Virus record (IMG/VR): IMGVR_UViG_3300030451_006972
Span: 1 to 23,641 of that record
Reading direction: 5' to 3' (one strand)
DNA: 23,641 nucleotides
Source of the DNA: a virus
Positions 1-21,179 of the stretch are shown in pieces. The translations under genes were made by a program, and so were the position numbers. The notes beneath the pieces are model-generated. The model was not told the DNA's origin, did no database searches, and saw only the letters and a list, made by a program, of their open reading frames with translations. Position 1 is the first letter of the stretch, and every line of letters starts with the position of its first letter.

Positions 1-359
1 GTATCTGGACCGATTCCGGTTGTTGATGCTGGCACTAAAATATACAACGCAGCCATACCGTATGTTGATGGGCGCCCAGTATATTTATATCCTAATGCCC
101 TACCGTGTCTCAAAATATTATTAAACTGGTACGAAGTGTCAAGGAAGGACTCGTTTACATTATAATCTAGATAAAAAGAAAGTTGATCACCGATATAGGA
201 AACTGCGTCTATCATTAATGAACCAAAAGATGCTTCACTAAAATCTTGAAAAGAATCTGGATAAAGCCTTTCTGCTATTTCCAGCAAGTCGCTTCTAATC
301 GATTCAAAATCGCGACTTGTGTAGTCGATAGGTAATATTTTTTTCTGCTCATCTGCCAT
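1..359 (-). CDS. 6: Baseplate wedge protein gp6-like (N-terminal part; gene runs off the window)
   Basis: I translated this partial gene directly from the minus strand. It starts with ATG at 359 and is open to base 1, giving about 119 residues that begin MADEQKKILPIDYTSRDFES. The YTSRDFESIR segment, followed by LLEIAERLYPDSF and then FGSLMIDAVSYIGDQLSFYLD, is the pattern I know from the N-terminus of T4-like gp6 and baseplate J-type wedge proteins. gp6 forms the wedge ring that joins the hub to the tail fibres. The gene lies directly downstream of gp25, the T4 order (25 then 6), with 13 bases between. An AGAGG ribosome site precedes the ATG. The C-terminal domains lie outside the window. Confidence 0.8.
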   Translation of the reverse strand, partial: MADEQKKILPIDYTSRDFESIRSDLLEIAERLYPDSFQDFSEASFGSLMIDAVSYIGDQLSFYLDYNVNESFLDTSYQFNNILRHGRALGYKYTGRPSTYGMAALYILVPASTTGIGPD

Positions 360-795: not shown

Positions 796-3700
796 TCAGT
801 CTCGTCCGTTACACATTTCCCCATCAGCATTAAACGGACTAGATCTTAGCCTACCGCGCTGCCACCACGGCAACATACTCTTACCTGGGACGGGGAACAT
901 AGCAGCTTTCAAATTCTTCAGGAACAGGTTGGACGGCTTTTCATCTTCTCCAAGCAAATCATCTCCGGGGCGATAATCACGCGAATAATAGTAAGTTTTA
1001 AAAAGCTTTTTAATTCTGTAGACACTATTCCTTAAAAGCCTTCGATCCCACTCATCCCAAGTTGTTCTCCACCATCCCGCTAAAGGAGCATCCCCTCGAT
1101 CTGAAAAATGTGCCCAGCCTTCGTTACCTGTGACTCCACTCTTGTTTGGATCAAAAGAAACAATTTCATATTCAACAGCGTCATCATACCACGGTACTCT
1201 AAATGGCAATAGGGCGTCCCTCATTGCTTCAGACATTTCGCTCCATGGGATTTCTTTTTCTAGAACATCGCGATGAATATAGGCGCGTGCTCCAGGTTTG
1301 ACTTTTACTTGAGTGAATGGAGTTTCAGCTAGCCAATGCTTTGGATTGGAGACGTCTCCTGCATCAACTCCCATAAGAGCTAGCAGTTTTCCACCAAGCC
1401 CAGTTGGGAGCCACATAGTGTCGTCTCCAGAGCCTGGAGTGACTTCACCTAGAGATGACATGATTCCAAAATCATTATAAATCGCCCAGATTGCTGTAAC
1501 TTTCTTAAGAGGGAAGATGTAGTTTGTCATTAATTTATATCTTTCGTCTTCTTTTAATTTTTTCAATAAACACATTAAAAGTTTACTGCTAGGCTGCATG
1601 ATGTTCCACTGGTTTATCTTAACATCTAATGAATCTACTTCTACAGATGTTATTTCTTTCTTCATTCCGTGAACATAATAGAAAGCAAGCCCATAACGAA
1701 CACCAATGTTGCCCTTAATACCAACTTCCACTCCCGCATCGTTATGTACCAACTGCAGGGTTCCTGGATATACATCTGAAATTCTAAGCTCGCCATCGTT
1801 TCCTCTAATAGTCGTACGTGCTTGAGCAGGAGTCATTCTAGTGCCGTTAATCGACACATATTGTTCTATTGCATAAGGCTTAGATTGGCTTCCCTGTGTG
1901 GCTTCACCTAAGCCCGGTACTGTCCCAATATAGGCTTTTTCGGTTTTAATTTTAGGATATGGAGAACTCTGCCTTTCTCTTGCTTCACCGGGGCTATATG
2001 AAGATCTTTCGGCGCCGGTGTGAGTGGCATCAACATCAACCGATTCTTCTAAGTAGGTTTCAGTTCCTACTGCAACTAAGTTGTCCACGGGTGTCAAAAC
2101 ATCGTGAGGCTCCGCGTTGTGTTGTTCGCCCGTCATATAAATGACATCCCCCTCTTCATCTATGTGTCCGTGGTAATATCCAATGTATTCATCAGCGTAA
2201 GAGAATTCATCATTTGGATTTTTATTTATCGCAATTCTAAATTCTGATCCTTGTGTGTAATAAGGACCTGGCCAAGAAACACCTTCGCCACGGGGATCAG
2301 GATTATCAGGCGTTGGCAATGCCTGAATTATTTCCACTTCCTCGGGCCCGCCGAAGAATAGTGGACCGTCTACGGAGCCTGGAAAACCTCCGGCGCCTGT
2401 GTTTGATGAATTCATTTCTTGAAAAATGTAGTAGTCTAAATCAAATATACGAGGATTAAAACCATATTGTCTCATGTTTTCGACAAGTTTTTTGCCCATT
2501 TTTGTTAATTCAAAATTAACCAATTGTTGTAATATCAGTTTCGCATGTTCCTCTACTGATTGAATAGCTTCAAAATTTTCATCAGAGCGATATCCTTTCA
2601 GAGACTGAAAGAACCCAGCTTCACCTGACATTTTTGCATCCCACAATCCTTGTACTGTCTGTTTTGCTTCTTTCCCTTCTGAATTGGTGTAGTTACGAGT
2701 GTATGTGGGGCGCATCGGGAATTCATACTCTGTCTGCAAATCATTAATAGTGTCGAAAGATTTCTGCAAATATCCCCCAGCTCTTGGCAATTCTATTTCG
2801 CCGGCTTCTACTAAGAAATTATAACATTCAACCGATTGCTCAAGAAAGCCATACCAAAACTCATCATCCTTGAACGATTGAGCCCAACCCCAAAAGCCAT
2901 CCGGGGCATTACGGAAATCTTCTTCCATTCTTTCTGTAATATATGCCGCGTAAATACTACTGAAATTGTCTGGAAATTTTGGCATAATTTGAGAAAATGT
3001 ACCCATTGCTTTAAAAAGGTGCGTTGATGCATATACTCTAATAGCAGCCATAATTAAAGAATACATTCCTGTTTTTCCAGCACGTGTCATAATTCTCTTA
3101 AATGGTACCTCTCGCACACATTCTTTATCTTGGTTAAGTCTAGGATCATCAGACATCTTTGGAAAATGCTCTTGAATGAAATCTTCAATTTCTCCAAAAT
3201 CAACCAAATCCACAGAATGTGGCTTACATGCAGTATTCTCGGGGAAAAATACTTGCACAAAGCCCATCCACCCCTTATATCTCAGGGGCTTAACATGTAG
3301 GTTTGGCTTAGTATAACTTCCGCCATATATTGCAGGATTTAAATAAATGACTCTTGGATTTTTAGGATTATTATATTGATCCCAGCTTACTCCCAGTTCC
3401 ATATCTTCTTCTTCAAATCCAGCAGTCCAATAAGGAATCCACTCGCCATCTATGACGACACCGTAGCGAATGTCATCTTGAGTTAGATAATCATAATCAG
3501 CACCATATAACCATCCTCCACTTTTATTTTGTGGATCTCCAATCTCTAAAGCTAGTTGTCTAAACATGCTATTCATAGTAGAGTTATAGCGTTGTTTTGC
3601 TTCGGTTTGACTCAAGCCTGTCATATCCGACAAAAGAAGAATCGGAGGCGAGTTATTTGGGAGTGCAGATTTGATTACTGAAAACTGTGGATAATCCGAT

Positions 3701-6700
3701 AGCTGTGGCCAGTCAGTGGCGCTTTGCATTTTATCTGGATCGGGTTCTACGTAGAACACATCTAGCCCATCATCAACAGAAAGGAACTCGAACTCTCTAA
3801 TTCTGTGAACTTCCTCTGCCCATCGCAATGCTAATATTTTCAAATTTCTTATAATAAGTTGGGTAAATGGCATCAAAATCAAATTTATCACCGATTCAAT
3901 TGCCCAACCTACAATTGGAATTCCTTCAATCCAGTTTGGCAGATCGAAAGGTTCCATTTTCGACATTTCATCTTCTAGAGCTTTACCTAACGGCCCTAAG
4001 TGATCAGAGGCGTAGTTTACCTTTTCAATAATTTCCATTCTCATATTATCGTCAAAACGATTGAGTATTTTACCGTCTTCGTTTTTATGTATGTCATTAA
4101 AGTAGCACTGTAGCTCATATCCATAAGACCATTGTGTTCCCCAATAACCTCCAGGAGCAAAAGATGATGCCTTACCTCCTTCATTGGTTGATATGTAATT
4201 GCCAGATTGACTTTTAGGACCATAACGCATGCCGGCAGCATTGTCTCTAAAGTCCAACACAATGTCACAACCTAATTCTTCGGGAGTGTAAAGCGGGCGC
4301 CCAGTTGAAGAACTTCCTTCTTTTGAACCGTTTACTCTTATTCCTGTTCCTTTTCTGGGTTCTCGGGTTACCACTACCTGATCTCTACTTTTGTCTTCTC
4401 TAATTGTGGTGTTGTATCCAAAATCAGGAACCATAAACAAATTCACACCTTGCGTTAAGGATCCAAAAAAGTTATTATATTGAAGTTTTTCAAAATCTAT
4501 ACGGAAAGTTTGTGCGCCGGTTGAGCCATTAACGCTCCTAAATCCCATACTATCTCCCACCAATGAATTCCGTAAATCATTACCCATTGATGTCAAACTG
4601 TAGAATCCTGGCTTGATGACAAAATTTGATCTCTCGCCGTCGCTCATACCGGCATTCAAAAATTGCCTCTTCATCCATTCCCCAACGTAATAAGGATATT
4701 GTCCATATTGCCCACTAAATCCTTGACTAAATTGGAAGAACGAAAACAGTCCAGTCGTTGATTCTCCCCCATTTGGAAGGTTAGTCGCATAATTTACATA
4801 TGCTTTGCTATTTGAAGATTTAGCATGGTGACTTGTAAGAGCAAATCCGTGTGTGTCTGCTAACATTAGATTCATGAAACCCCACTGTGAGTCACTGTTC
4901 CAAAAGTTACCATTACCCATCATGTCTTTTCCGTAATCAATTTTCAACATCTCTAAATCGCCGCCAAGAGCAAAAGCGCCGAGGGCGGCTTGTTGCGGAG
5001 ACTCAAAAGGAAATATACCATCTTCGCAACCGGGCTCACTAATCAATGGAGGTAGATTTTTTATAATGTGATTTCCAAGTCCGCCTTGTAAGATATCCGA
5101 CAAATCTCCAAGATCTTCCAGTGTATCTTCTCTAATATTACAGAACATTTCATGACATTGCTCGGGCGTAGCTCTCCCTTCTAGCAGTTCACATCTTAAA
5201 GCCTTAAATTGCTCAATTTGCTCAGGTGTAGAACACATGCTTGGATTGATAGGCATCATATCCGGACCTTCTCCGGTTACGTCTACATCCCAAATATTTC
5301 TATTTGCAGCATCTTCAAGCTGTGCGCGAGCATCTACTGGAATGAGGTTGCCTATGTTTTTGAAAAACCTTCCGACGGAGTTTCTATTAGGAATTCCTTC
5401 TCTAAATTCAGGGTACTCATATTCGATCAAGTGATCTACAATCTCTAAGAATATTGGAGATGGGCTGCCTAAAAGAGCATTTGTCATTTCAGAAGTTGTC
5501 ACAGAAGAGGATAAGTCTATACCAAACTGAAGTGTTCTGTCTCTATTGGCAAACGCTGCAGAGCCAAGTCCGAGCTGGCTCATGAGATCTAAAATAGTAT
5601 CTTCCACCTGCTTATCATCAGCTTCCGGTCCACAAATAGTTTCTTTAATTACATCTGCTAAGTCTGCAGTGCCGGCAATTGCACCAGGAAGGGCTCCGAT
5701 GATTGCCCCACCGACTTCAAGTGCTTTACAAATTGCATTTCCAATTAACTCACAAATCTTTACCATTAATACCATTAATATTTTCCAAACAAGTTGCATA
5801 ATAATAAACTTTGCAATTATCCATATAGCTTGCGTAATATCTGCAAAATCAGGAAAATATTGTAAGGGGCTCTCAAGTCTTGGAAGAGTGAATTCCATCA
5901 TCCCATTGCAAAATGGGAAAATAATTGATTTAATGAAATCTGGGAAAGAAGGATTGAGGAGTGGCGGGTTTGGGCAATCCAACATTCCTATAATAGCAGC
6001 GATAATCTGTGAACCTGGGAATTTATTAAGTTCATCGAGCAATTCAAAAAGATTGTCACTATAATATTCAAGGAGAGCTTTTATATAAGCCTGCATAATG
6101 TTGTCCACAGGGATTCCATTTAAGCCACCAGCAGCGCGATCATTTTGTTGCACCAAGGTTCTTTCATATTTTCCAGGAGCATTTCTTTGGGTATTGGGCG
6201 TAGGCACCATTCCTTCAAAGTTGTCTTCCTTGAGTTCTTCTCTCTCTTTATCAATAACTGACTGTACTTCCCATGGCTTAGGAATCGCACCTGTATTTGT
6301 AGAGAAGAAGCTTCCCTCTTTTAATTGTTTCTCCACCATAGCACCAAGCTCTCTCTGCTTGTGCTCTGGAAGTCCTCCAAAAAGATCTCCAAATTGTTCA
6401 ATGCCCATGTTTTGAAGTGCTGCCATTAGCATCTTTGAAAGAGCTTCATCGAGGGTTAGTCCACCCGTTAAGCACTGAATTACAGATTGCAACAGATCGA
6501 AGAGTCCGCATATTTTTATTCTTTGAAAGCCAAACTTATACATGGTTGCCATAAGAGATGAAACACTACCTAAGTTCGAACTCGATGCAACAACCGACAT
6601 ACACAACATAACGAACACATTGTCATCTTTCGAAAGCTTGGCAAACGCTTGCTCGGATGCCATTCCATATGCCTTAGTCATATCCATAGAGCCGTCGCCT

Positions 6701-7923
6701 GGATATAGTCCTGCTAAAAAGTCGTCAGACAGTGATTCGTTAATGCTGTCTCTGCATATAGACTTTCTCCAAAGATAAGCAACAGCGTCACCTATACTAA
6801 AGACTTCATCTAAAATATCTTGCCCTAATTCTTTAAACTCATCAGCAAGAGCATCAGCTACACAGGAGCCAATAGTTTGCTCAGTATTCTCTTCTTTTAT
6901 ATCAAAAAATATTGTTGGATATGTATACTTTTCAATAAAATCTTGCCATGGAGTTTGAACACGAGCGTTTAATTCACGAGCCATCTGAGGTAATTTGGTG
7001 AAATATGCCACGGCGGTTTGATCTTTCCAAGGCGATTGAGATCTCAAAGGCCTAAGTTTCTTTTTACCAAAATAGAAAGGTTTATTGCCGCAACCAACTG
7101 TCCATACTCTCATAGACTGCAATTCATAATCATCAAAAACAAACTTTAATTTGGTTACAAGCGCATCTGTACTAAAGATTCCAAAAAATTGTCCGGGTAA
7201 TCTGAAATTCTTTGAGTCAAGGAAGGCTTCCAAATCGTTCATGAGAGAATGCATAATGCCTTCTCCCAAAAATCCAGCATCGCCATAATCTTCAAGATTA
7301 AAAATCGTACGATTTGCTTTATAGTACGCGTTACCTTCACCTATTGAACGATAAACTTTAAGGAGCCTGCCGTACATATCGAGCCCCTTTCTAACTCTGA
7401 TAATTTGAGTAGTCAGTTGGGCAGCATTGAATGTTACCTTAATCGTTCCCGGTTCCTCATCTTCAAATGGCTCGGCTTCTGGCTCGGCATCGGGCAGTTC
7501 ATATATTACGTCAAAAGGAACTGAATATAATAATTTTAACCTTGTATTTGGATGTGGATCTAAATCATATCTATCGTAAAATATATGTTCTCGAACTTTT
7601 TCTTTAGAAGAAAAACTTTCATCTTTATCGTAAAAATTTAAAATGCTATCGATTGCTTCTTCTTCAAATTCTTTGAAATTATCGTCTACATCTGGCTTTA
7701 TTGTTGTATAAGGAGTAACTTTTGTTACTTGATAAAGACACTTTTTCTCATTAAGAAATGGCTCATCAATATTTCTATTAAGCCATTGAGGATTAATAGC
7801 GGCAGGATTGGGAGTACATGGACCCTTACACGGTGATTCAGGGGTTGTAATTAAATCATCACAAACGTCAATCAATCCGTCGTTATCGACATCCTGAAAC
7901 CTTAAAAATTTTGATTCTGCCAT
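796..7923 (-). CDS. Giant virion structural protein, 2375 aa, baseplate module
   Basis: This single reading frame covers about 30% of the window, and I do not recognise a named family over its length. Its position between the hub/spike genes and gp25 suggests a virion (baseplate or tail) protein. Residues 11-23 read DVDNDGLIDVCDD, a DxDxDG calcium-loop pattern like thrombospondin type-3 or dockerin loops. A short acidic, proline-rich stretch lies near 141-160. Strongly hydrophobic segments lie near 430-490, near 695-757 (two long helices then an Ala/Gly-rich stretch) and near 1328-1364, which could insert into membrane. An aromatic, Gln/Gly-rich segment lies near 1060-1082. Cysteines are frequent. 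An AGGAAAA ribosome site precedes ATG 7923. The tape measure is an unlikely alternative, because the protein lacks long uniform helical repeats and sits apart from tail-tube genes. The function is unknown; the virion assignment is inference from context. Confidence 0.6.
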   Translation of the reverse strand: MAESKFLRFQDVDNDGLIDVCDDLITTPESPCKGPCTPNPAAINPQWLNRNIDEPFLNEKKCLYQVTKVTPYTTIKPDVDDNFKEFEEEAIDSILNFYDKDESFSSKEKVREHIFYDRYDLDPHPNTRLKLLYSVPFDVIYELPDAEPEAEPFEDEEPGTIKVTFNAAQLTTQIIRVRKGLDMYGRLLKVYRSIGEGNAYYKANRTIFNLEDYGDAGFLGEGIMHSLMNDLEAFLDSKNFRLPGQFFGIFSTDALVTKLKFVFDDYELQSMRVWTVGCGNKPFYFGKKKLRPLRSQSPWKDQTAVAYFTKLPQMARELNARVQTPWQDFIEKYTYPTIFFDIKEENTEQTIGSCVADALADEFKELGQDILDEVFSIGDAVAYLWRKSICRDSINESLSDDFLAGLYPGDGSMDMTKAYGMASEQAFAKLSKDDNVFVMLCMSVVASSSNLGSVSSLMATMYKFGFQRIKICGLFDLLQSVIQCLTGGLTLDEALSKMLMAALQNMGIEQFGDLFGGLPEHKQRELGAMVEKQLKEGSFFSTNTGAIPKPWEVQSVIDKEREELKEDNFEGMVPTPNTQRNAPGKYERTLVQQNDRAAGGLNGIPVDNIMQAYIKALLEYYSDNLFELLDELNKFPGSQIIAAIIGMLDCPNPPLLNPSFPDFIKSIIFPFCNGMMEFTLPRLESPLQYFPDFADITQAIWIIAKFIIMQLVWKILMVLMVKICELIGNAICKALEVGGAIIGALPGAIAGTADLADVIKETICGPEADDKQVEDTILDLMSQLGLGSAAFANRDRTLQFGIDLSSSVTTSEMTNALLGSPSPIFLEIVDHLIEYEYPEFREGIPNRNSVGRFFKNIGNLIPVDARAQLEDAANRNIWDVDVTGEGPDMMPINPSMCSTPEQIEQFKALRCELLEGRATPEQCHEMFCNIREDTLEDLGDLSDILQGGLGNHIIKNLPPLISEPGCEDGIFPFESPQQAALGAFALGGDLEMLKIDYGKDMMGNGNFWNSDSQWGFMNLMLADTHGFALTSHHAKSSNSKAYVNYATNLPNGGESTTGLFSFFQFSQGFSGQYGQYPYYVGEWMKRQFLNAGMSDGERSNFVIKPGFYSLTSMGNDLRNSLVGDSMGFRSVNGSTGAQTFRIDFEKLQYNNFFGSLTQGVNLFMVPDFGYNTTIREDKSRDQVVVTREPRKGTGIRVNGSKEGSSSTGRPLYTPEELGCDIVLDFRDNAAGMRYGPKSQSGNYISTNEGGKASSFAPGGYWGTQWSYGYELQCYFNDIHKNEDGKILNRFDDNMRMEIIEKVNYASDHLGPLGKALEDEMSKMEPFDLPNWIEGIPIVGWAIESVINLILMPFTQLIIRNLKILALRWAEEVHRIREFEFLSVDDGLDVFYVEPDPDKMQSATDWPQLSDYPQFSVIKSALPNNSPPILLLSDMTGLSQTEAKQRYNSTMNSMFRQLALEIGDPQNKSGGWLYGADYDYLTQDDIRYGVVIDGEWIPYWTAGFEEEDMELGVSWDQYNNPKNPRVIYLNPAIYGGSYTKPNLHVKPLRYKGWMGFVQVFFPENTACKPHSVDLVDFGEIEDFIQEHFPKMSDDPRLNQDKECVREVPFKRIMTRAGKTGMYSLIMAAIRVYASTHLFKAMGTFSQIMPKFPDNFSSIYAAYITERMEEDFRNAPDGFWGWAQSFKDDEFWYGFLEQSVECYNFLVEAGEIELPRAGGYLQKSFDTINDLQTEYEFPMRPTYTRNYTNSEGKEAKQTVQGLWDAKMSGEAGFFQSLKGYRSDENFEAIQSVEEHAKLILQQLVNFELTKMGKKLVENMRQYGFNPRIFDLDYYIFQEMNSSNTGAGGFPGSVDGPLFFGGPEEVEIIQALPTPDNPDPRGEGVSWPGPYYTQGSEFRIAINKNPNDEFSYADEYIGYYHGHIDEEGDVIYMTGEQHNAEPHDVLTPVDNLVAVGTETYLEESVDVDATHTGAERSSYSPGEARERQSSPYPKIKTEKAYIGTVPGLGEATQGSQSKPYAIEQYVSINGTRMTPAQARTTIRGNDGELRISDVYPGTLQLVHNDAGVEVGIKGNIGVRYGLAFYYVHGMKKEITSVEVDSLDVKINQWNIMQPSSKLLMCLLKKLKEDERYKLMTNYIFPLKKVTAIWAIYNDFGIMSSLGEVTPGSGDDTMWLPTGLGGKLLALMGVDAGDVSNPKHWLAETPFTQVKVKPGARAYIHRDVLEKEIPWSEMSEAMRDALLPFRVPWYDDAVEYEIVSFDPNKSGVTGNEGWAHFSDRGDAPLAGWWRTTWDEWDRRLLRNSVYRIKKLFKTYYYSRDYRPGDDLLGEDEKPSNLFLKNLKAAMFPVPGKSMLPWWQRGRLRSSPFNADGEMCNGRD

Positions 7924-7945: not shown

Positions 7946-8929
7946 TTAAGTTAAAAATATGTTTGGACTATTAATATATCTATATCCCGAAGGAACAAGA
8001 TAGTATTGCTCCCACATTGTTGCCTTAACTCGGGTTGCCCATAAATTTTGCAATGCAAAAGAAAGCATACCGCCGGCAGCAGGTGGTCCTTGAGCAGCGT
8101 TCCATGGGCGCCAAGGATCAATTGAGTTTGTTATATTATAGCCAGTCTGAATTAAACACAAGTTGTAGACTGCAGACCATACGTTGCCCATTATTTCATT
8201 TAGTTCAGTTAGTGCTTTAGTTAAATTCTCTCCCTTAACTGCTGCCTGTAGGTATGGCACCGTTTCGATGGGATTTTTCAACCCTCCATACACCCATTTT
8301 TCTTCAGAATAATTTCCAGCAATTAATTCTATAGTAGGAGCAATTGTGCTTTTTCCACCAAAGGCATTCGTTTCTCCGCGAGAGCCATGTCCTTCGAAGC
8401 CGCCGCCCCTACCTGTGCACAATTTAAAACTATTTCTAGCTATAATTCTCACATCGTCTGCTTTTATACCAATACCGGCGCCGGGACGAGTTCTTCCAGG
8501 AACACCGGAAGCAATACCAAAGTTTTCATCAATTTTTGTTAGCTGACTTATGTATATTCTTGCAGCATCCGCAGAGAACATGTTAGAAACAACCGATCCT
8601 TCTTTTGGACCTTCTCCACCCTTAGCACTAGCACCTCTACCGACAACTAAGTCTATGGTAGCAGAATTTTGATATCCCCTAGCGCCAAAGCCACTAAAAA
8701 TTGTACTGGGGCGATCGGTACCCAAAACAATTGATGCGCCGGCGTGCTGAATCATTGATTCACCTGCAGCTAATTTAAACTGCAATGGCTTGTTGGGCAC
8801 CAGAGTGTGGAATATTCCAGAATCAGCTGGAACACCAATTACGGTACCCGGATTTTCTTTAATTGTAGTATAGAGAGTAGATTGTCCACCAACAGGAGTA
8901 AATGCTGGCTTTTTTGGATCAAAAGACAT
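7946..8929 (-). CDS. Glycine-rich spike-like baseplate protein (putative)
   Basis: The product is 327 residues. The first 210 are rich in Gly, Ser, Ala and short beta-type strands, with glycine-rich turns such as VVGRGASAKGGEG and CTGRGGGFEGHGSRG. Around residues 153-171 it reads IGIKADDVRIIARNSFKL. This alternating pattern resembles the beta-helical, trimeric spike regions of T4 gp5-type or VgrG-type proteins. Residues 230-327 look helical and aromatic-rich, with several Trp. It follows the hub-like gene and precedes the giant virion gene, where a spike or hub accessory would be expected. It is the first gene after the longest intergenic gap, with AAAGG about 8 bases before ATG 8929. The virion role is inference from context and composition; the exact role is unassigned. 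Confidence 0.45.
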   Translation of the reverse strand: MSFDPKKPAFTPVGGQSTLYTTIKENPGTVIGVPADSGIFHTLVPNKPLQFKLAAGESMIQHAGASIVLGTDRPSTIFSGFGARGYQNSATIDLVVGRGASAKGGEGPKEGSVVSNMFSADAARIYISQLTKIDENFGIASGVPGRTRPGAGIGIKADDVRIIARNSFKLCTGRGGGFEGHGSRGETNAFGGKSTIAPTIELIAGNYSEEKWVYGGLKNPIETVPYLQAAVKGENLTKALTELNEIMGNVWSAVYNLCLIQTGYNITNSIDPWRPWNAAQGPPAAGGMLSFALQNLWATRVKATMWEQYYLVPSGYRYINSPNIFLT

Positions 8930-9007: not shown

Positions 9008-10297
9008 TTATGCTTCGCTTTCTCCAAATTCATCATCATATCCCCCAGTATCGCTTTCACCGAGTTCTTCTGAGGCAGCGGTGGCACCGCCATAGTCTGG
9101 CTGTAACGCCAGTAAAGAATTGCGAAATTGTGTTACTGTGCTGTTCCAGTTTCTTTCAATTACTGTTCCATCCCTGACTATTCTTCCCGTTGCTTTTAGC
9201 TGCACTAATTCAGTTTTTGTTAATTGAGTATTCCAATTAGAATAATAATTCCAAGTTAACGTTTCCGCATCTTCAGAAACACTATTGCCGGCAAGCTTCT
9301 TATATCCTCTAGCCATTTTTTTCTCAATTATTTTACTAAACGCAGTAATTCCTTTTTCCAGAGTATCAAATCCAGCAAAAATTCTCTGTTCATTTCCACT
9401 GTCTAAGAAACAAGTTTGATAATCAAAATCGCTTTTTTTGGTACCAGAAAATCCTCTCTTATTGTCCAACTGTATGCCGGCGACGTTATTTGCAGGAAAC
9501 TTAAAGCCGGGCTGCTCTTTGTTTAAAAAAGCCCACATTGTTTTTCTTAAATCCCTATTGCTTACTGTGGAATTGACAGCATTTAAAACTTGCTGTCTAG
9601 AATAAGAGAAAAATCTGGTAGGTTTTTTTGGCAAGTCTGGATATATCGATGGGCGGCATTTTTCAAACGTTGGATCATCCTTGGTGCCGCCGCGAGATGA
9701 TTGCCCTGGGAGAGCACCGCCCTCTTCAAGATATTGAAAATTGTTTACCAAAGGTGAGCCTCCAGATTCATTAAAATTAGAACCCCCTATTCCTTGCCCA
9801 GATATTCCTCGTTGATATTCCCCCATTTGCATATTTGGGGCATTACCCGTACCATTTTTTGGTAATCGAACTTCAATAATATCTCCTTGAGCTGGCGGAG
9901 TTACATTAAGAGAATATCTTGCCGTTACTGTAGTGTGGAGTGAAACTATTGAATCTCTCCAACTGTCACCATATCTCTCTGATGCTGGGCCATTAATGAA
10001 TGAGGGATCTAAAGGATCAGGTAGATATTTATGAGGTGAATTTTCTCCTAATATTCTTACCTTTAATTTGTAATTAACACCCGAAGCTTGTTGCGCAGAC
10101 TTTAGTTTTGTTGCAGTACCATGCGTAGCACCTTCCGTTACTGTCATTTCTTTTGCTACCGTTAGCACAACTGCAGTGAAAACATCTTTATCGCTATAGG
10201 CATCAAATTTAATCGCTTCCGCGATTGAATACCTCATTAAGTCCAGTTTTCCGTCTACGGTAGATAAACCTTTTTTGTCTAAAAAATCTTTAGCCAC
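9008..10297 (-). CDS. gp5-like baseplate hub protein with probable lysozyme/transglycosylase-like domain
   Basis: The product is 429 residues. Residues about 20-145 contain strand-rich sequence (YKLKVRILGENSPHKYLPDP, then SIVSLHTTVTARY and PAQGDIIEVRLPKNG) that resembles an OB-fold hub domain with an 'available as a mixed-ring valve' proline/Gly pattern. After a Gly/Ser-rich linker (150-210) comes a second domain, about 230-400. Its FLNKEQPGFKFPANNVAGIQ segment has an acidic residue (E261) followed by an NN-AGI motif, typical of glucosaminidase or transglycosylase-type peptidoglycan hydrolases, and its FAGFDTLEKGITAFSKII segment matches a common motif in the same group. The last 30 residues are acidic. 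T4 gp5 also combines an OB fold with lysozyme, and gene order supports a hub role. It probably opens the host cell wall during tail penetration. The domain calls were made by eye. Confidence 0.55.
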   Translation of the reverse strand: MAKDFLDKKGLSTVDGKLDLMRYSIAEAIKFDAYSDKDVFTAVVLTVAKEMTVTEGATHGTATKLKSAQQASGVNYKLKVRILGENSPHKYLPDPLDPSFINGPASERYGDSWRDSIVSLHTTVTARYSLNVTPPAQGDIIEVRLPKNGTGNAPNMQMGEYQRGISGQGIGGSNFNESGGSPLVNNFQYLEEGGALPGQSSRGGTKDDPTFEKCRPSIYPDLPKKPTRFFSYSRQQVLNAVNSTVSNRDLRKTMWAFLNKEQPGFKFPANNVAGIQLDNKRGFSGTKKSDFDYQTCFLDSGNEQRIFAGFDTLEKGITAFSKIIEKKMARGYKKLAGNSVSEDAETLTWNYYSNWNTQLTKTELVQLKATGRIVRDGTVIERNWNSTVTQFRNSLLALQPDYGGATAASEELGESDTGGYDDEFGESEA

Positions 10298-10589
10298 TGT
10301 TAGATGTACCTTGAATTATATCGTACAAATTAGTTTTGTCTTCATCGCTCAACTCTTCCGATAATGTAGCGTTTTTTTGCTTTATATTGATAATTTTCAC
10401 AAGCTGCTCATTAGAACGCTGCATTGTTTCAATGTGCTTGGCGGCAACAGGACTTAGACTTCTGTTATTATCAGAGTCTGCAGCTATTTGATTTGCTATT
10501 TCATTTAAGAATTCTTTAGCAATTTTTCTATCACTGCGGATATTTTCCAGTGCTTCTCCTATGAGATTATCTAAATTTTCGTTGCTCAT
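10290..10589 (-). CDS. Small unknown phage protein, 99 aa, downstream of late sigma factor
   Basis: I do not recognise this protein. It is charged, mostly helix-forming and has no cysteine, signal peptide or membrane segment. The middle (SLSPVAAKHIETMQRSNEQL) looks amphipathic and could form a helical bundle or coiled coil. Its ATG overlaps the stop of the late sigma gene by 4 bases (ATGA), and its end overlaps the hub-like gene by 8, so it is probably co-translated with the sigma factor. A T4 gp33-like co-activator would fit the size and neighbourhood, but I see no motif to prove it. A small terminase or assembly factor is also possible. Confidence 0.6.
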   Translation of the reverse strand: MSNENLDNLIGEALENIRSDRKIAKEFLNEIANQIAADSDNNRSLSPVAAKHIETMQRSNEQLVKIINIKQKNATLSEELSDEDKTNLYDIIQGTSNSG

Positions 10590-11287
10590 ATGTCGCCGTT
10601 CTCCCAGCCTGACTTGAAATTTGTATAACGCTTTCTAAATTTTTTTAATGAATTTACGATTTGTTTGGTGTTTAATCCTGTTATTTCTCGCAGGTAAAGA
10701 TAAATAGCTTTCTTGTTAAAAATTTCTATATCATCTTTAGATTCAAAAAGTATATTAATCGCCTTATACACTTTTAAATCATTGTCTTTCATTTGATTTT
10801 CATCCCAAGATTTAATCTCTTCGTGAAAAGATTTCCAAAATTCCGCGGTTTCTCTCTCTTTGATGTACGAATCATCTGTAGACAGATATTGTTCTTCGTA
10901 GTGTTTTGCTATATTATCAAAATCAACTTCTCGCATATTGCGCTTCTGTTGTCTTTTTACTTTATGTATAAACCAGTTTTTTGTGATTACGCTAAAATAC
11001 GAAAAGGCTTTGGAGCCTTTGCTTTGATCATACTTGTCTAATATTGTCATTAGCCAAATTTTACATTCATCCCTTAAGGAGTCTATATTTGGTAAATTAG
11101 TGAACTTATAAGTAAAAACGATCTTGTCAACCATTTCATTAAATGCCGGCTGGATGTACGTTACATAAAGCTCTGTTCTTTCTCTGATACACGTAGATTT
11201 TGAATATCTAACAATCGCATCTTCATGTACTTTTGTAAAATAATGATTTTTCTTTCTTCTAGCTCTAGTTTTGGGTTTCGGGCTCAA
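10586..11287 (-). CDS. 55: Late-transcription sigma factor, T4 gp55-like
   Basis: This 233-residue protein would direct host RNA polymerase to phage late promoters. After a basic N-terminus (residues 3-13), residues about 35-120 have a sigma region 2-like pattern: LRDECKIWLMTILDKYDQSKG then AFSYFSVITKNWFIHKVKR. The KYDxxKGxxxFxYF core is the signature I associate with T4 gp55 and sigma factors generally. It is longer than T4 gp55 (about 185). The extra C-terminus has a helix-turn-helix-like segment near 193-223 (AIYLYLREITGLNTKQIVNS). The start is TTG at 11287; no ATG or GTG occurs in frame before residue 52, inside the conserved region. The gene overlaps the preceding membrane-protein gene by 23 bases. 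Confidence 0.8.
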   Translation of the reverse strand: MSPKPKTRARRKKNHYFTKVHEDAIVRYSKSTCIRERTELYVTYIQPAFNEMVDKIVFTYKFTNLPNIDSLRDECKIWLMTILDKYDQSKGSKAFSYFSVITKNWFIHKVKRQQKRNMREVDFDNIAKHYEEQYLSTDDSYIKERETAEFWKSFHEEIKSWDENQMKDNDLKVYKAINILFESKDDIEIFNKKAIYLYLREITGLNTKQIVNSLKKFRKRYTNFKSGWENGDI

Positions 11288-11609: not shown

Positions 11610-12442
11610 GATAAGTTCTCCGGCTCATAATCAAATAATGAAAAATCCTCTCTGTAGTATTCTATAAAGCCGCGGTGCATGTCGGGTTCTTTTCTCAAAA
11701 TATCATAAAACACTTCTTTATAAGATTGCGAGTTAATAGTCGACTCTGATGGGTTTCTGTGAACCATGTTTGCTGGATCTGGCATGCCGTTAGCATCTAA
11801 AAAATCACCCTCATGTTGAGTAACAAGACTAACTTTTTTTGTGCGGGATATGTTATGTTCTTGCATAAAACGCCATAATTCATTGTAATAATCCTCACAT
11901 TGATACAAATGTGTCGTGTCGTTGTGCCACGTGGTTTGGGGCAAAAACATGCGATCTAGTTTTTTTGGATCTGTTTCAAATTCGTAATCCGTTGGTGCTT
12001 GTACTTTTCTTTCTATAATATATTGCAATGCTTTGTGGACACTGTTTTGAAAATCATCCATTCCAACCGAAAGGTTCCGTTTGGGGGAAGTATCCCACCC
12101 GCTCTTGTGGCGCTTGTTCTTATCATTAAACAGAAGAGTATCTTTCGGCGTGCGCCACTTAACAATACTTACAAATCTGGAGTATGGATTACGTGTGAAG
12201 CAGAATGTGCTATGGTTAGCATATTTTGGCAAAGATGTTATTTGTGGCGCCGTCATATGAGTTGTGGAGTACGATCGTCGGCTGGCTTCGTAGCCGTTTT
12301 CACTATCTACAAGCCTGAATAAGAAATCAGCTGTTGTTGTTCCATAATTTTTGGGAACATGTATGAATACCAACTTGCGATCCCACAGGGCATTGTTTGA
12401 CGCCTTTTGTTCGGCTAGTCTGATTTTTTTAATTAAACTCAC
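11606..12442 (-). CDS. Sulfotransferase (carbohydrate-type, PAPS-dependent)
   Basis: The 278-residue protein carries the two PAPS-binding elements of the sulfotransferase superfamily. A 5'-phosphosulfate loop lies at residues 25-37 (VFIHVPKNYGTTT), and a 3'-phosphate site at 81-90 (CFTRNPYSRF). The C-terminal YREDFSLFDY near 262-271 is the YxxDFxxFxY ending seen in Sulfotransfer_2 proteins. It should move a sulfonate from PAPS to a sugar hydroxyl. The usual loop is HVPKTGGTS; here NYG replaces TGG, a mild change. The start is GTG at 12442, within a GTGA overlap with the preceding gene's stop. It is the last decorating enzyme of the glycan cassette before the regulatory genes. The substrate cannot be read from sequence; a polysaccharide is inferred from its neighbours. 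Confidence 0.8.
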   Translation of the reverse strand: MSLIKKIRLAEQKASNNALWDRKLVFIHVPKNYGTTTADFLFRLVDSENGYEASRRSYSTTHMTAPQITSLPKYANHSTFCFTRNPYSRFVSIVKWRTPKDTLLFNDKNKRHKSGWDTSPKRNLSVGMDDFQNSVHKALQYIIERKVQAPTDYEFETDPKKLDRMFLPQTTWHNDTTHLYQCEDYYNELWRFMQEHNISRTKKVSLVTQHEGDFLDANGMPDPANMVHRNPSESTINSQSYKEVFYDILRKEPDMHRGFIEYYREDFSLFDYEPENLS

Positions 12443-12702
12443 GAATTTTCTTTTTTATATACCTTTTCTTTCACTTCTCTCTTCATATCATCAAGAAGTT
12501 TTTTATTGTCTTCAATGTATTGCTTAGTTATGTCTCCAGTAGCTTGTCTTTTTGTGTTCTTATCAAAATGTAACGGTTTAGTCAGCAACTTGCTTACACC
12601 GGGGAGAGAACAAAGTGTGCACTCCTCCTGAACCTCTGACATTAGATGGTAGACAAAAAAATCTTCACCACAATTATTGCAATGATAATAATATTTTGGC
12701 AC
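12439..12702 (-). CDS. FmdB-type zinc-ribbon small protein
   Basis: The 87-residue product begins MPKYYYHCNNCGEDF and continues with CTLCSLPGVSKLL, giving two CxxC pairs (residues 8/11 and 29/32) that should bind one zinc. This MPxYxYxCxxCG opening is the FmdB regulatory-protein family pattern, which supports the GTG at 12702 as start even though no strong ribosome site is present. The last 40 residues are charged and helical. The GTG shares one base with the preceding gene's stop (TAGTG), so translational coupling is likely. FmdB-type proteins occur in many tailed phages; their role there is not established, with DNA or RNA binding a usual guess. Confidence 0.72.
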   Translation of the reverse strand: MPKYYYHCNNCGEDFFVYHLMSEVQEECTLCSLPGVSKLLTKPLHFDKNTKRQATGDITKQYIEDNKKLLDDMKREVKEKVYKKENS

Positions 12703-12941
12703 TATTTTACCATGTTAAGCAAGTCTTGTTCACTAATGTTTTTTTCATTAGAAACTCTAACTGTGGGCGGGTTTGTTACAACCAGCCCGTCTGTGCTTTC
12801 TACCAACTCAAAACCTCTTAAAATCGGCACTATGTCAAGCTCATTTAGCAATGATTCCTGAAGAGCCATCATAATAGATCCTAATGCTTGGTTTGACAAC
12901 TTATGTGTTGTTTCGTTAACATCATTACCCATTGGTTCCAT
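12702..12941 (-). CDS. Small conserved-looking phage protein of unknown function, 79 aa
   Basis: I do not recognise a named domain. The middle (LSNQALGSIMMALQESLLNE) forms an amphipathic helix followed by a short strand-rich part (GFELVESTDGLVVTNPPTV). The type LSNxALGxxMMALQxSLL is one I recall from small hypothetical proteins of marine T4-like phages. ATG 12941 has only weak ribosome-site sequence; an in-frame ATG three codons later (12932) is an alternative. The start overlaps the coiled-coil gene by 17 bases and the end touches the FmdB-like gene. Confidence 0.6.
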   Translation of the reverse strand: MEPMGNDVNETTHKLSNQALGSIMMALQESLLNELDIVPILRGFELVESTDGLVVTNPPTVRVSNEKNISEQDLLNMVK

Positions 12942-13092
12942 CCACTTTATTTGTGAGATACTTTACGTCTGATGCCACGTCAGACTTAAACCTTTTAAGC
13001 TCATTTCTAAGTGTGTATACTTCGTCACTAAACACACTGATTCTCTGTTGAAGACGTTGAATCTCCTTTTGTAGTTCTTTTACTGTAGCCAT
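12925..13092 (-). CDS. Short coiled-coil protein, 55 aa
   Basis: Starting at ATG 13092 the product begins MATVKELQKEIQRLQQRISV. Most of it reads as one continuous helix with heptad-spaced Leu, Ile and Val, so a coiled-coil oligomer is likely. An earlier in-frame ATG at 13110 is rejected, because the strong ribosome site AAAGGAG lies between it and 13092. The gene starts 10 bases after the methyltransferase stop and overlaps the next gene by 17 bases. The function is unknown. Confidence 0.6.
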   Translation of the reverse strand: MATVKELQKEIQRLQQRISVFSDEVYTLRNELKRFKSDVASDVKYLTNKVDGTNG

Positions 13093-13097
13093 TATTT

Positions 13098-13104
13098 CTC
13101 CTTT
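13098..13104 (-). promoter_or_regulatory. Ribosome binding site that decides the coiled-coil gene start
   Basis: AAAGGAG on the minus strand stands 5 bases before ATG 13092, and it lies inside the reading frame if the upstream ATG 13110 were used. This favours 13092. Confidence 0.65.
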
Positions 13105-13762
13105 ATTCATTTCTAGCTTTAGTGATTTTTCCCCACTTGCAAGTGGAAAATCTTTTTGTTAATTCTTTTTTTAAATTTTCATATTCTGGATGTCCAGCAC
13201 CATGAACTTCCATTGAAATATTTTTAATTCTCTTATCTAAGTCATGTTTAAATATTTGATCAAAAACCTCAAATTCACACCCTTCACAATCAACTTTTAA
13301 AAAATCAACGTAATCTATGTTATTTATTTCAAATATTTCTTTTATGGATATCTGTTCTACCGCGCACTTCGTTATAGAGTTGCTTGGCTTGGTGGACTTA
13401 AATCTTTCTTCAGAATTATAGCTTCCGTCACCGGAATAAATTGATTTATGTCCGCCTCTGTTGTCTCGGTTTTCACAAATTTTTACAATCGAATTATTGC
13501 CAATTACTCCCGCATTGAATAGTTTAACATTTTTAAATTTGCTTAAATTTGTTTCTGCTGCCTTGTAATTGTCTTCCATCAGCTCATATGCATATATATT
13601 GCACTCGGGATACATTTCGGCTGCTAAATATGAGAACCATCCGTAATTAGAGCCTATGTCTATAATATGAAGAGGATCCCTATCAAAACTAATATCTCGA
13701 AGAGAATAAGTATCGTCGTGGTAAACCTCTCTTTTAATTATTTTGTCCCACTGTGGATCCAT
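13103..13762 (-). CDS. FkbM-family SAM-dependent methyltransferase
   Basis: The product is 219 residues. Residues 33-47 (IIDIGSNYGWFSYLA) are the SAM-binding motif I of class I methyltransferases. The YVDFLKVDCEGCEFEVF segment (151-167) is the FkbM-family signature, usually FLKIDVEGxExxVL. FkbM-type enzymes commonly O-methylate sugars in surface polysaccharides and are frequent in marine phage glycan islands. A GGGAG site lies 7 bases before ATG 13762. It follows the HAD phosphatase with 4 bases between and belongs to the glycan cassette. The substrate is not deducible. Confidence 0.85.
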   Translation of the reverse strand: MDPQWDKIIKREVYHDDTYSLRDISFDRDPLHIIDIGSNYGWFSYLAAEMYPECNIYAYELMEDNYKAAETNLSKFKNVKLFNAGVIGNNSIVKICENRDNRGGHKSIYSGDGSYNSEERFKSTKPSNSITKCAVEQISIKEIFEINNIDYVDFLKVDCEGCEFEVFDQIFKHDLDKRIKNISMEVHGAGHPEYENLKKELTKRFSTCKWGKITKARNE

Positions 13763-13766
13763 TGCT

Positions 13767-14060
13767 TTACTCCCAGTCCTCAGAATTTATCGCCTTATCA
13801 TCGATAAACAAATCATACACCGGCTTACCAAGTTTTAAATCATGATGTTTGGCTCCCCATTGAGTTAATTGTTTTTTGGTTACATCATACCAATCAATTC
13901 CAGTACCAGAACCACGTGCTGTCCAATATACAACAGTATTCCCTTCATCGTAAAATTTATTTGCTTTTGCAATATTCTCAATAATTGGTGTTGAATTACT
14001 GTAGTTTCTATCATCTGGTGTGTTTGCAATTGTTTCATCAATATCAATATAAACTATCAT
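13767..14060 (-). CDS. Small HAD-superfamily phosphatase
   Basis: The 97-residue product has HAD motifs in order: YIDIDET (D6 nucleophile, D8 acid/base), YWTARG (T47), a Lys near 76-79, and DLFIDDKA (D87, D88). It lacks a cap domain, so it belongs to the short capless HAD type seen in capsule and LPS loci, sometimes annotated as capsular-biosynthesis or nucleotidase-like phosphatase. It would remove a phosphate from a small sugar phosphate or a nucleotide. GGAGAAAGT precedes ATG 14060, which overlaps the dioxygenase stop by 4 bases. In NeuB pathways a 9-phosphate can need removal, which gives a possible but unproven role. Confidence 0.8.
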   Translation of the reverse strand: MIVYIDIDETIANTPDDRNYSNSTPIIENIAKANKFYDEGNTVVYWTARGSGTGIDWYDVTKKQLTQWGAKHHDLKLGKPVYDLFIDDKAINSEDWE

Positions 14061-14974
14061 ACTTTCTCCATAAAATCGTATAGTGGTTTTTTGTCATCAC
14101 TAAGTTGTTCATAAAACTCTTTGGATATCTTAAATCTCTTTGAATAGGGCGATTGTTCTCCCTCATAAAATACCCCGGGACCGTAAGGCAACTGGGAAAG
14201 GCTTTGCGATAATTCATGATGAACTAAAAAATTCATTGTAAATAATATGCGAAAGCCGCTTTCTAAAGGCAGCCCCTTGTGGAAGCCGTTGGTGGTTGCT
14301 ATAATCAAATCTCCATATCTCCCAGTAATATTTTTCACACTATTGGCACCGTATAGAAATTCTATTTCTTCATTTTCCCATCTTAATTTACTGCTCCAAT
14401 TATTTGGCAGTCGACGGTGGGAACCCTCAACGTATGTAAACGGACCGTTATCAATCGTTACATCATTTAGATATGTAAAAAATTTCAAAATCTTAACTGG
14501 ACTGTTAAAGTCACGATGAAATTGACATGTGCCAAACTCTCTAGAATTTTCACTAGCGCTATATCTTAAGTTTTGTGTTCCAAAGCCGGGAAAACACTTG
14601 AAGAATGAGGCAGCAATTGCTATTATCCGACTATCAGTAGCTAGCGAATTCAGACTTGTAACATTCAACAATGGCTGGTTTATTTGAGAATGTTGCCCCC
14701 CATGAGTTTGCTTGATTAATGCAGGATCCATGGATTGAAACGCTCGGTGGCAATCATCACGCGCAACATTCAAATTATCAATATCCCAAAAATTCTCTAT
14801 CTTGTGATAACCGTTTTGATTAATGTTTTCTGCTACAGCATTTGATTCGGGTGTGGTGTATTTTTCCCAATCAGGTATCAGTTCTCGACGTTCTGTTATT
14901 CTGTCGTTATACCAATTAACCACGGTGCTGGCGCCTCTATAGAAAGATGCATCTGTTGGAGTCAACCATTTCAT
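14057..14974 (-). CDS. PhyH-type Fe(II)/2-oxoglutarate dioxygenase (1)
   Basis: The product is 305 residues. The metal triad reads H153-x-D155 (FHRDF) with distal H232 (GFHKG), and the 2-oxoglutarate-binding R242 follows ten residues after it, as in PhyH (phytanoyl-CoA hydroxylase) family proteins. A typical LNDVTIDNGPFTYVEGSHR stretch (169-187) sits between them. Such enzymes hydroxylate small molecules or lipids using Fe(II), O2 and 2-oxoglutarate. The gene directly follows the pyruvyl transferase stop (TAAATG) and overlaps the HAD gene. In this cassette it probably modifies a sugar or lipid-linked precursor, which is inference. The start agrees with a GAGG site about 11 bases upstream. Confidence 0.85.
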   Translation of the reverse strand: MKWLTPTDASFYRGASTVVNWYNDRITERRELIPDWEKYTTPESNAVAENINQNGYHKIENFWDIDNLNVARDDCHRAFQSMDPALIKQTHGGQHSQINQPLLNVTSLNSLATDSRIIAIAASFFKCFPGFGTQNLRYSASENSREFGTCQFHRDFNSPVKILKFFTYLNDVTIDNGPFTYVEGSHRRLPNNWSSKLRWENEEIEFLYGANSVKNITGRYGDLIIATTNGFHKGLPLESGFRILFTMNFLVHHELSQSLSQLPYGPGVFYEGEQSPYSKRFKISKEFYEQLSDDKKPLYDFMEKV

Positions 14975-16096
14975 TTATATTAAATCCTCTGCTATCTTTT
15001 TACATAAATCACCAAACTGCTCTTGATATTGTGAGACTAAAATATCTCTATTATTATACCATGAGTTCAAAAAATCTTGATTAGTGGTTAGTTTTGTAAA
15101 CAAATTGTTTAACTTAATATACCAGCTTTCATCATTGATGTCAACATTAAAGTTCATTAGATTATTTCTTTTAGAAAAATTGAGAACCTTATCTTGCGTT
15201 GAAAAATATACAGAAGGTACGTTCAAAGCTAAAGCTATCATTTGTCCGTGTCCGCGCATTGCAATAGAGCAACCTACATTTTCATAATATCTCAACAGCT
15301 CTAAGTAAGATTCTATACTTGAATATTTTTGGAAGTGGGGCTTGTCCCAGACTGATTCAAACCCAGCAAGATTAAACGGAAAATGCATGTAATCTTTTGG
15401 TGTGTGGGGCAAAATTTTTAGCCCGAATTCAGTTGGCATGCGTATTATTTTATTAAAATTTTCATTATTCAAAAATCTTCCTATCATAATATTTTGTCCG
15501 CCATTAAATGCTGGTTGTAAGACTTTATCTTTTCGCTGTACTTCTTCTACAGTCATGCGAGGATACTCGTAATCATAAATCAATCCGGGATCCGGTACTT
15601 CAAGTATTTTATTAAAAACAGAAGAATGTAAAATTTCTTTGGCGGAATCAAGGGAGCCGTCGTTTCTAAGAGAGAATATTCTTGAATTATTGACAAGAGA
15701 AGTCAAACCATCAACTCCTTTTTTAGTGAAACCCGCCACAGATCTAAAATAATTGATGCCAGCGCCAATAACATAAATTGGAATATCTAATTTTAATTCT
15801 TCGAAGATTTCATCATTGAATGGCAATTTCCAGCCCGTATAAGTATCATTAAACGGCCCGCCCTCAAGCAGTCCGCCACCACCTATAAATAACGCAGAAC
15901 AACCCTCTAAACGCTCGTTAAATGTGCTTAATACATAATCTTTATTATTTTTACAATCTAAAAATCCGATTATATTAATTGGAACCCACTCAATTTTCTC
16001 TGGAATGAGCTTTGATACTTGGATACGAATATTATCTAGTGCAACCGTGTCTCCAATATTTGTCCCATAGGCGCCAAAGTGAGCAATTTTAAGCAT
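14975..16096 (-). CDS. Polysaccharide pyruvyl transferase family protein
   Basis: The product is 373 residues. It shows family landmarks in order: HFGAYGTNIGD near residues 7-16, LFIGGGGLLEGG (69-80), IGAGINYF (110-117), FSLRNDGS (141-148), DPGL (169-172) and RGHGQMIALALNVPSV (281-296, comparable to the conserved RxHxxI segment of CsaB-type enzymes). These proteins transfer a ketal pyruvate from phosphoenolpyruvate to a sugar of surface polysaccharides, adding a negative charge. Phosphoenolpyruvate is also the NeuB co-substrate, so the cassette would use it twice. The start overlaps the methyltransferase end by 8 bases; ATG 16096 has only a weak ribosome site. Some family members have glycosyltransferase-like roles. 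Confidence 0.85.
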   Translation of the reverse strand: MLKIAHFGAYGTNIGDTVALDNIRIQVSKLIPEKIEWVPINIIGFLDCKNNKDYVLSTFNERLEGCSALFIGGGGLLEGGPFNDTYTGWKLPFNDEIFEELKLDIPIYVIGAGINYFRSVAGFTKKGVDGLTSLVNNSRIFSLRNDGSLDSAKEILHSSVFNKILEVPDPGLIYDYEYPRMTVEEVQRKDKVLQPAFNGGQNIMIGRFLNNENFNKIIRMPTEFGLKILPHTPKDYMHFPFNLAGFESVWDKPHFQKYSSIESYLELLRYYENVGCSIAMRGHGQMIALALNVPSVYFSTQDKVLNFSKRNNLMNFNVDINDESWYIKLNNLFTKLTTNQDFLNSWYNNRDILVSQYQEQFGDLCKKIAEDLI

Positions 16097-17653: not shown

Positions 17654-17654
17654 G

Positions 17655-20811: not shown

Positions 20812-21179
20812 TAGTCTCCGCGGTGAATCCTGTGGCTATCACTGTCAAAATGTTGTGTTGAGAACTCGTAAAGGTATGAATCCTCTAAAGCGTACATTTG
20901 ATGTCTTAAGCCAATCGGAACATAAAAATTTTGTCCTGCTTCTAGAATAATCTGTTTAGCTAACTCTGGATTATCTCCGTCACTGTATTTTACAATCATC
21001 TTTCCTGATTGAAGATAAAATACTTCGTCTTTCTTTTTGTGAAAGTGCCAAGAGCATTGCTTTCCTTTTTTAAAAAACAACAATTTGCCACAGTATTCTT
21101 CTTTGTTAACAATCCATTTTTCATATCCCCAGCCCTTTTCTACATACTTCATAGGCGGGTGTATAAGATGCTCTACCAT
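20811..21179 (-). CDS. Cupin protein of sugar-biosynthesis type
   Basis: This 122-residue protein has a cupin core: WHFHKKKDEVFYLQSGKMIV (44-63; H45, H47, E52) and, later, FYVPIGLRHQMYAL (85-98; H93), giving the usual His-His-Glu and distal His metal set. Single-domain cupins of this kind are common in nonulosonic acid and O-antigen loci, near mannose-6-phosphate isomerase-like or sugar-isomerase proteins. GGAGG lies about 8 bases before ATG 21179, which overlaps the SDR gene by 7 bases. It may bind or isomerise a sugar or sugar nucleotide. The exact reaction is unknown. Confidence 0.8.
   Translation of the reverse strand: MVEHLIHPPMKYVEKGWGYEKWIVNKEEYCGKLLFFKKGKQCSWHFHKKKDEVFYLQSGKMIVKYSDGDNPELAKQIILEAGQNFYVPIGLRHQMYALEDSYLYEFSTQHFDSDSHRIHRGD

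Follow-up and report, generated by a model that had tools for sequence, protein, structure and literature searches.

The window analysed here, a stretch of 23,641 nucleotides that forms part of a 47,148-base IMG/VR virus record (G000), encodes on its minus strand a giant protein of 2375 amino acids (positions 796 to 7923), hereafter f2, which lies within a block of baseplate genes. f2 is a real, clade-defining protein, probably structural, and our best reading, to which we would assign a probability of about 60%, is that it acts as a covalently stiffened scaffold of the tail tip at the interface between hub and wedge, stapled by disulfides and characteristic of one large marine Far-T4-like branch. 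Judging by gene position, the only guide to its placement, we infer that f2 is present in the virion, where it would be built into the baseplate as a large scaffold around the spike and the gp25/gp6 ring. The N-terminal half would consist largely of helices, among them a long conserved apolar one, the C-terminal half would form a rigid domain with a fold not found in PDB searches, and about 21 near-invariant cysteines, together with a pair that swaps by one helical turn, may provide disulfide staples that lock the protein in an oxidising medium. Since phages assemble in a reducing cytoplasm, such bonds would be made once the cell has lysed and would then give stiffness to the free virion.

A giant selected protein within the baseplate gene block

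The original prediction of a 2375-residue reading frame was borne out, and this frame opens with an ATG located immediately downstream of an AGGA stretch (residue r corresponds to about window position 7923-3(r-1), minus strand, which applies to all segments of f2 located below). A first scan of IMG/VR with f2 gave 76 loci, and a second scan using the f2 alignment as query gave 241 relatives, of which the best 80 were kept; the locus counts reported here are therefore samples, some scans having given the best 80 matches only. After removal of any sequence containing X or forming an exact sub-sequence of another, 82 distinct complete homologues of 2042-2459 amino acids were obtained, in which the full length of the protein is kept, in agreement with the 2.0-2.6 kaa of the family. 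Comparison with four close relatives showed synonymous differences at saturation (pS 0.81-0.85) and dN of only 0.10-0.17, and for these pairs no dN/dS ratio could be obtained as dS is saturated. The conserved length and the saturated synonymous sites combined with low dN indicate that f2 is a selected protein and not a chance reading frame. Conservation extends evenly over the full length, with more than 100 invariant columns in an alignment of 22 sequences.

f2 found no family match in Pfam or PHROG, host-recognition fibre families included, whose appearance would have spoken against the original prediction. Some of the 22 members scanned gave single weak hits that differed by member (best 0.0015 in PHROG and 0.015 in Pfam), which are taken as chance. 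Neither the f2 queries P0001, L026 and L398 nor the slot protein of L402, described below, matched any of 50,697 phage records, and in bacterial and archaeal genomes f2 was found only as fragments in one Flavobacteriales MAG. The carriers of f2 are uncultured phages only, mostly marine and related to the "Far-T4" group.

The genes surrounding f2 confirm its placement between hub/spike and gp25 genes (all coordinates on the minus strand). On one side lie the baseplate wedge gene gp25 (373 to 741; Pfam GPW_gp25 2.7e-14, PHROG 4.7e-26) and the start of a second wedge gene, gp6, which runs off the window (3 to 359; PHROG baseplate wedge 6.8e-15). The opposite flank comprises a 327-aa gene (f1, 7946 to 8929), a 429-aa gene (f0, 9008 to 10297), a small gene and a gene resembling late sigma factors (f8, 10586 to 11287), whose homologue in L004 matched the PHROG late sigma factor with an E value of 0.0033. 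f1 matches an OB/spike protein of the sister clade in hhalign (84.8%, E 6.5e-6) and is thus probably part of the central spike, while f0 is a hub protein with an exchangeable cell-wall hydrolase at its C-terminal end, here a weak glucosaminidase. Across 32 loci that were compared, the order f0-f1-f2-gp25-gp6-f5-f7 was constant over whatever part of it a locus covers.

f2 has the gene position of a T4-type hub/wedge protein, inside the block and adjoining gp25. As in the hub and wedge of T4 (gp5, gp27, gp6, gp7, gp25), gp25 and gp6 are recognised, and f0 shares with gp5 the presence of a domain for cell-wall hydrolysis; unlike in f2-bearing phages, the T4 hub/wedge genes include no protein of the size or sequence of f2. 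Both halves of f2 were compared by hhalign with 72 proteins or pieces of at least 330 amino acids from T4, P-SSM4, HTVC008M and phiM9, the best value being 6.2%, and homology to the T4-type hub/wedge proteins was not found. The same procedure applied as a control linked gp25 to its T4, phiM9 and HTVC008M counterparts at 92-97% and gp6 to those of T4 and HTVC008M at 91-93%, and missed phiM9 gp6 (2.8%). Profile searches of the whole P-SSM4, HTVC008M and phiM9 records likewise returned no homologue of f2. These comparisons support the earlier remark that T4 has nothing of this size at this place.

Distribution of f2 among T4-like phages

To place these phages we relied on the 195-kb contig G001, which carries f2 along with a gp23-type capsid protein, a tail tube and a gp26-like hub. 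Its major capsid protein (PHROG 6.2e-69) has LR756508, Mel-JY01, RM378 (34% over 95%) and immuto as best tblastn matches, and the gp6 of L004 is closest to those of Microcystis phage Mel-JY01, the uncultured LR756508 and Flavobacterium phage immuto. A gp23-type capsid protein nearest to RM378 and its relatives, together with T4-type structural genes, identifies a Far-T4 phage, and this assignment applies to G001, the window's own record having been read outside the window at frame starts only. As far as the available text of PMC4360716 and PMC7198788 goes, the Rhodothermus phage RM378 is the isolate of the "Far-T4" group, a marine member of which is assigned to Bacteroidetes in silico in the second of them; the word baseplate is not found in that text.

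The sister branch, composed of immuto, Mel-JY01 and 127 metagenomic loci, carries a gene of about 150 amino acids in the f2 slot. The block is otherwise recognisably the same: immuto, Mel-JY01 and LR756508 share the order small membrane gene, sigma, small gene, spike/hub, slot, gp25, gp6, f5 and f7, but hold a protein of 139-223 amino acids instead of f2, and hhalign between the blocks of the two branches gave 99.1-99.7% for sigma, 97.9-98.8% for gp25, 100% for gp6, 94-96% for f5 and 94-97% for f7. Over 130 loci, the sister slot gene adjoining gp25 encodes 110-490 amino acids (median 150), and 125 of these proteins belong to one family. The idea that f2 is an enlarged version of this slot protein was rejected, as the profiles do not match. 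A search through the whole of four sister-phage records returned no f2, the same models having matched f2 in other searches, with no positive control within these records. We also observed that a helical protein with apolar stretches (L172, L219; the sec_0 family) precedes the small slot gene of the sister clade, forming one family in 73 of 118 loci.

A tree built from 290 gp6 sequences groups every f2 locus in one clade with support of 1.0 and has a second clade, without f2, with support of 0.99. The first is made up of 121 loci with f2, 6 unresolved and 1 with a non-matching slot frame, and the second of 128 loci without f2 and 32 unresolved; among the 235 loci fetched by gp6, 66 carry f2, 127 lack it, 41 are unresolved and 1 is other. 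One f2 frame in this set, complete-looking but of only 703 amino acids, is an outlier that may be broken or frameshifted and is kept in the f2 count. The exception within the f2 clade, L402 (3935-9520), classed by hand as having a large non-matching frame, has a slot protein of 1861 amino acids (f2 model E 0.29, hhalign 11.5%) that has either diverged strongly from f2 or replaced it. f2 is constant across its branch, absent from the cultured sisters and larger than any T4 baseplate protein. It gives a marker gene for this branch of marine T4-like phages, which is abundant but uncultured, and its surroundings illustrate how a block of baseplate genes can include a giant extra part, whose relatives were found in viral metagenomes only.

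A protein of this size might also be the tape measure in an unusual place, a reading to which the helical N-terminal half with its apolar segment would lend itself, and homologues that were clearly tape measures had been named as an outcome contrary to the original prediction. We consider it extremely improbable and rejected it, since another gene occupies that place: in G001 an 883-aa frame lies beside the tail tube and the gp26-like hub, the tape-measure position known from HTVC008M, whereas f2 lies elsewhere, has this rival candidate and contains a large, confidently predicted globular half. Relatives of the 883-aa frame were found in 6 of 10 f2-bearing records, G001 included, the other four being contigs of 99-114 kb that may be fragments. 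With the tape measure probably encoded by another gene, f2 has the appearance of an additional baseplate protein that defines its clade. Two other frames assigned to G001, L145:3381-4961 and L145:12801-16232, are by eye GroEL-like and PolIII-alpha-like, and a 1452-aa frame without known family (L146:13386-17744) lies near its tail tube block.

Predicted fold and paired cysteines

AF2 predictions with 71 sequences gave a mostly helical N-terminal half (pLDDT 65.4, pTM 0.61) and a more confident C-terminal half with beta-rich stretches (residues 1176-2375, positions 799 to 4398, minus strand; pLDDT 81.4, pTM 0.81). Searching the PDB by sequence returned chance-level rows only (best E 0.014), and when folds were compared neither half reached a Foldseek value below 0.001; in VIA, where parts of the long models were barely tested, the best Z values for the halves were 4.8 and 3.7. 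The C-terminal half did match the BFVD entry A0A516M7H3_2 (Foldseek E 8.3e-22 over 1087 columns, TM 0.39/0.42), which is itself a predicted viral structure with 13% identity. The size of f2 and the lack of a structural family match could suggest an enzyme or effector that travels with the virion and is delivered into the host by ejection, but the position fixed between spike and gp25 and the absence of any enzyme family or PDB fold match make this very unlikely.

The strongest clue on f2 is its cysteine framework, which the original prediction had missed. Over the 82 homologues, 23 columns hold cysteine in at least half of the sequences, and 21 of these do so in 77-82 of them. The median number of cysteines is 26 in f2, compared with 2 in gp6, 1 in f5, 3 in partial f7 and 5 in f0; expressed as a percentage, the content of f2 (1.2-1.3) is modestly above the 0.96 calculated over 144 frames of G001 and not extreme, the hub f0 having 1.12. 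Among the deep-branch members, the invariant cysteines are clearly better retained than other residues only in L398 and L401, at 17 of 20 positions versus 83 of 189 (p 0.0006), and not in L396, L397 and L399, at 15 of 20 versus 116 of 189 (p 0.33).

Counting those of the 153 aligned sequences (filtered as above) that cover the columns, residues 911 and 923 are both cysteine in 69, neither in 67 and mixed in 1 (n=137); to account for this, the f2 tree needs no fewer than 10 changes, compared with a mean of 46 and a minimum of 36 when labels were shuffled. A second pair, 907/927, replaces the first: 68 sequences have only 911/923, 55 only 907/927, 11 neither, 2 a mixed state and none both (n=136), with at least 7 swaps required between the two states. 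The correlations within the pairs are 0.99 for 911/923 and 0.97 for 907/927, and the next positive correlation among the 8 variable cysteine columns is 0.25. Both pairs sum to 1834, as expected of facing positions on antiparallel helices, and AF2 places helices at 900-913 and 920-947, in a hairpin (residues 900-947, positions 5083 to 5226, minus strand) where 907/927 lies one helical turn from 911/923 on the two antiparallel helices.

Cysteines that are gained and lost as a pair are a mark of disulfides. From this pattern of sequence evolution, which we regard as strong evidence, the 911/923 or 907/927 pair appears to form a movable disulfide staple of the helical hairpin; a disulfide is favoured since it would permit a one-turn swap, which is hard to reconcile with a metal site whose remaining ligands are fixed. 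The staple is the new and testable point on f2, and the swapping pairs allow the stiffening of a contractile tail by disulfides to be tested directly. Against the scaffold reading stand the 11 of 136 sequences with neither pair, the lack of a match to any known baseplate protein by sequence or profile, and the unexceptional cysteine percentage and limited retention of invariant cysteines in deep branches noted above. A different possibility is that f2 acts as an assembly factor absent from the virion, its placement there being deduced and not drawn from proteomics. We judge this highly improbable, as disulfide-like pairs suit a protein that ends outside the cytoplasm and 2.0-2.6 kaa is large for a chaperone.

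Disulfide-stiffened contractile tails are, within the sources available in part, documented structurally in few phages, namely Milano, 7-7-1 and Pam3. In the available text of PMC10811340, the contractile tail of Agrobacterium phage Milano has cysteine-rich structural proteins, and its sheath and baseplate are locked by disulfides, some of which need reduction for contraction. f2 resembles this case in that a tail-gene protein rich in cysteines evolves them as pairs and would form disulfides, although the bonds of Milano have been seen and those of f2 are proposed from evolution; moreover, the Milano bonds described there span several wedge, sheath and receptor-binding proteins, while the cysteines considered here sit in one giant protein for which no search gave a relationship to them. 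Disulfides within a myophage baseplate are also attributed to cyanophage Pam3 (cited in the available text of PMC10329688), whose baseplate, unlike that proposed for f2 phages, is minimal, cross-linked to fibres and without a giant protein.

A possible partner of f2 is a thioredoxin-fold protein with a WCxPC motif and a lipoprotein-like start, encoded at about 36522-37118 of G000 (L002:13123-13719, minus strand; homologues L410-L417), its export having been judged by eye. It occurs in 15 of 18 f2-bearing records as well as in the window's record, and none of the 9 records of sister phages or RM378 carries it, an association only, as several of the records are fragments. No Erv1/Alr oxidase was matched in 8 records of these phages, where the control was likewise without a match. 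More speculatively, f2 might be a redox-gated penetration device, closed by disulfides in seawater, with the lipoprotein belonging to the same redox system. If so, reduction of the bonds at the host envelope would let the helical N-terminal half and its apolar helix unfold and open a path through the membrane, and the lipoprotein would make, proof-read or open these bonds; we hold this to be improbable.

Calcium-type loop, hydrophobic segments and flanking genes

The calcium-type N-terminal loop of the original prediction, DVDNDGLIDVCD (residues 11-22, positions 7858 to 7893, minus strand), is present and conserved across the 82 main-clade sequences. EF-hand, TSP3 and dockerin-type calcium loops follow the pattern DxDxDGxxDxxD, and the canonical loop needs position 12. 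Residues 11-22 show the residues of this pattern, with D1 in 82 homologues, N/D3 in 75, D5 in 77, D9 in 80 and D/E12 in 58, a loop pattern restricted to the main clade. By curated family score, Pfam EF-hand_1 appeared in only 2 of 22 members (best E 0.028), so that membership of a curated calcium-loop family was not found. The loop is absent from the five deep-branch members (L396, L397, L399, L398 and L401), and calcium as a general requirement is for this reason not supported. All five keep the C-x-x-C-x-PN motif that follows, which belongs to a conserved Cys / C-x-x-C-x-PNP stretch (residues 21-47, positions 7783 to 7863, minus strand).

The loop, the size of f2 and the beta-rich stretches of its C-terminal half could fit a tail-tip platform for recognising or adhering to the host, in the form of a large calcium-dependent receptor-binding protein. 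We give this little credence, given that f2 is evenly conserved over its length, unlike variable fibres, that the loop is lost in the deep branches, and that a LamG domain lies downstream, in f7.

Two hydrophobic segments had been proposed as latent membrane helices of an injection device, and only one of them is a conserved hydrophobic helix. Residues 695-757, containing VKICELIGNAICKALE (positions 5653 to 5841, minus strand; AF2 helix 691-737), form a long conserved apolar or amphipathic helix, its KD19 at the corresponding place being at least 1.6 in 66 and at least 1.3 in 81 of the 82 homologues (Kyte-Doolittle and Hessa-type hydrophobicity values were used). For the f2 of the window alone, 68 of 500 shuffles attained its KD19 of 2.15, which means that the conserved place, and not the height of the peak, provides the evidence. 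Residues 1328-1364 (positions 3832 to 3942, minus strand) are hydrophobic at chance level (at least 1.72 in 305 of 500 shuffles) and correspond to an insert of the window's subclade, essentially complete (38-41 residues) in only 11 of 82 homologues.

These data bear on the reading of f2 as an envelope-penetrating or channel-forming pilot protein, in which helix 691-737 would be released on contraction and enter the inner membrane. The constancy of the hydrophobic place, the helix-like stretch kept in deep branches and the apolar stretches also found in 29 of 73 sister-slot sec_0 genes agree with it. Nevertheless, the crude insertion energy of this one conserved segment is borderline (median -0.08, 41 of 82 below 0, compared with -2.69 for a one-TM control), the helix contains charged residues that, like this estimate, give it an intermediate rank, above soluble proteins but short of the genuine one-TM control, and it is amphipathic in L398/L401 and L076. 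With the second segment reduced to a subclade insert, a device of two membrane helices is not supported. The invariant cysteines and the rigid C-terminal half fit the scaffold better, and a membrane-channel role is possible but not favoured; we regard it as rather unlikely.

Several observations concern the genes around f2. A T4-type late promoter motif, TATAAATA, occurs once per strand of the window, the minus-strand copy lying inside gp6, and is uninformative. The C-terminal hydrolase of f0 swaps between relatives (L004, L008, L020, L026, L029, L031, L033 and L045 were compared), with VanY, M23, Amidase_2 and phage tail lysozyme taking the place of the weak glucosaminidase of the window; of 10 f0 proteins tested, 7 matched a cell-wall hydrolase family, 2 matched none and 1 had a doubtful phosphatase match only. 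Some loci hold two or three copies of f0. Finally, positions 12439-23468 of the window form a variable island before the conserved block, with sugar, methyltransferase, sulfotransferase-like and dehydrogenase-like genes (named by eye), whose content differs among relatives.
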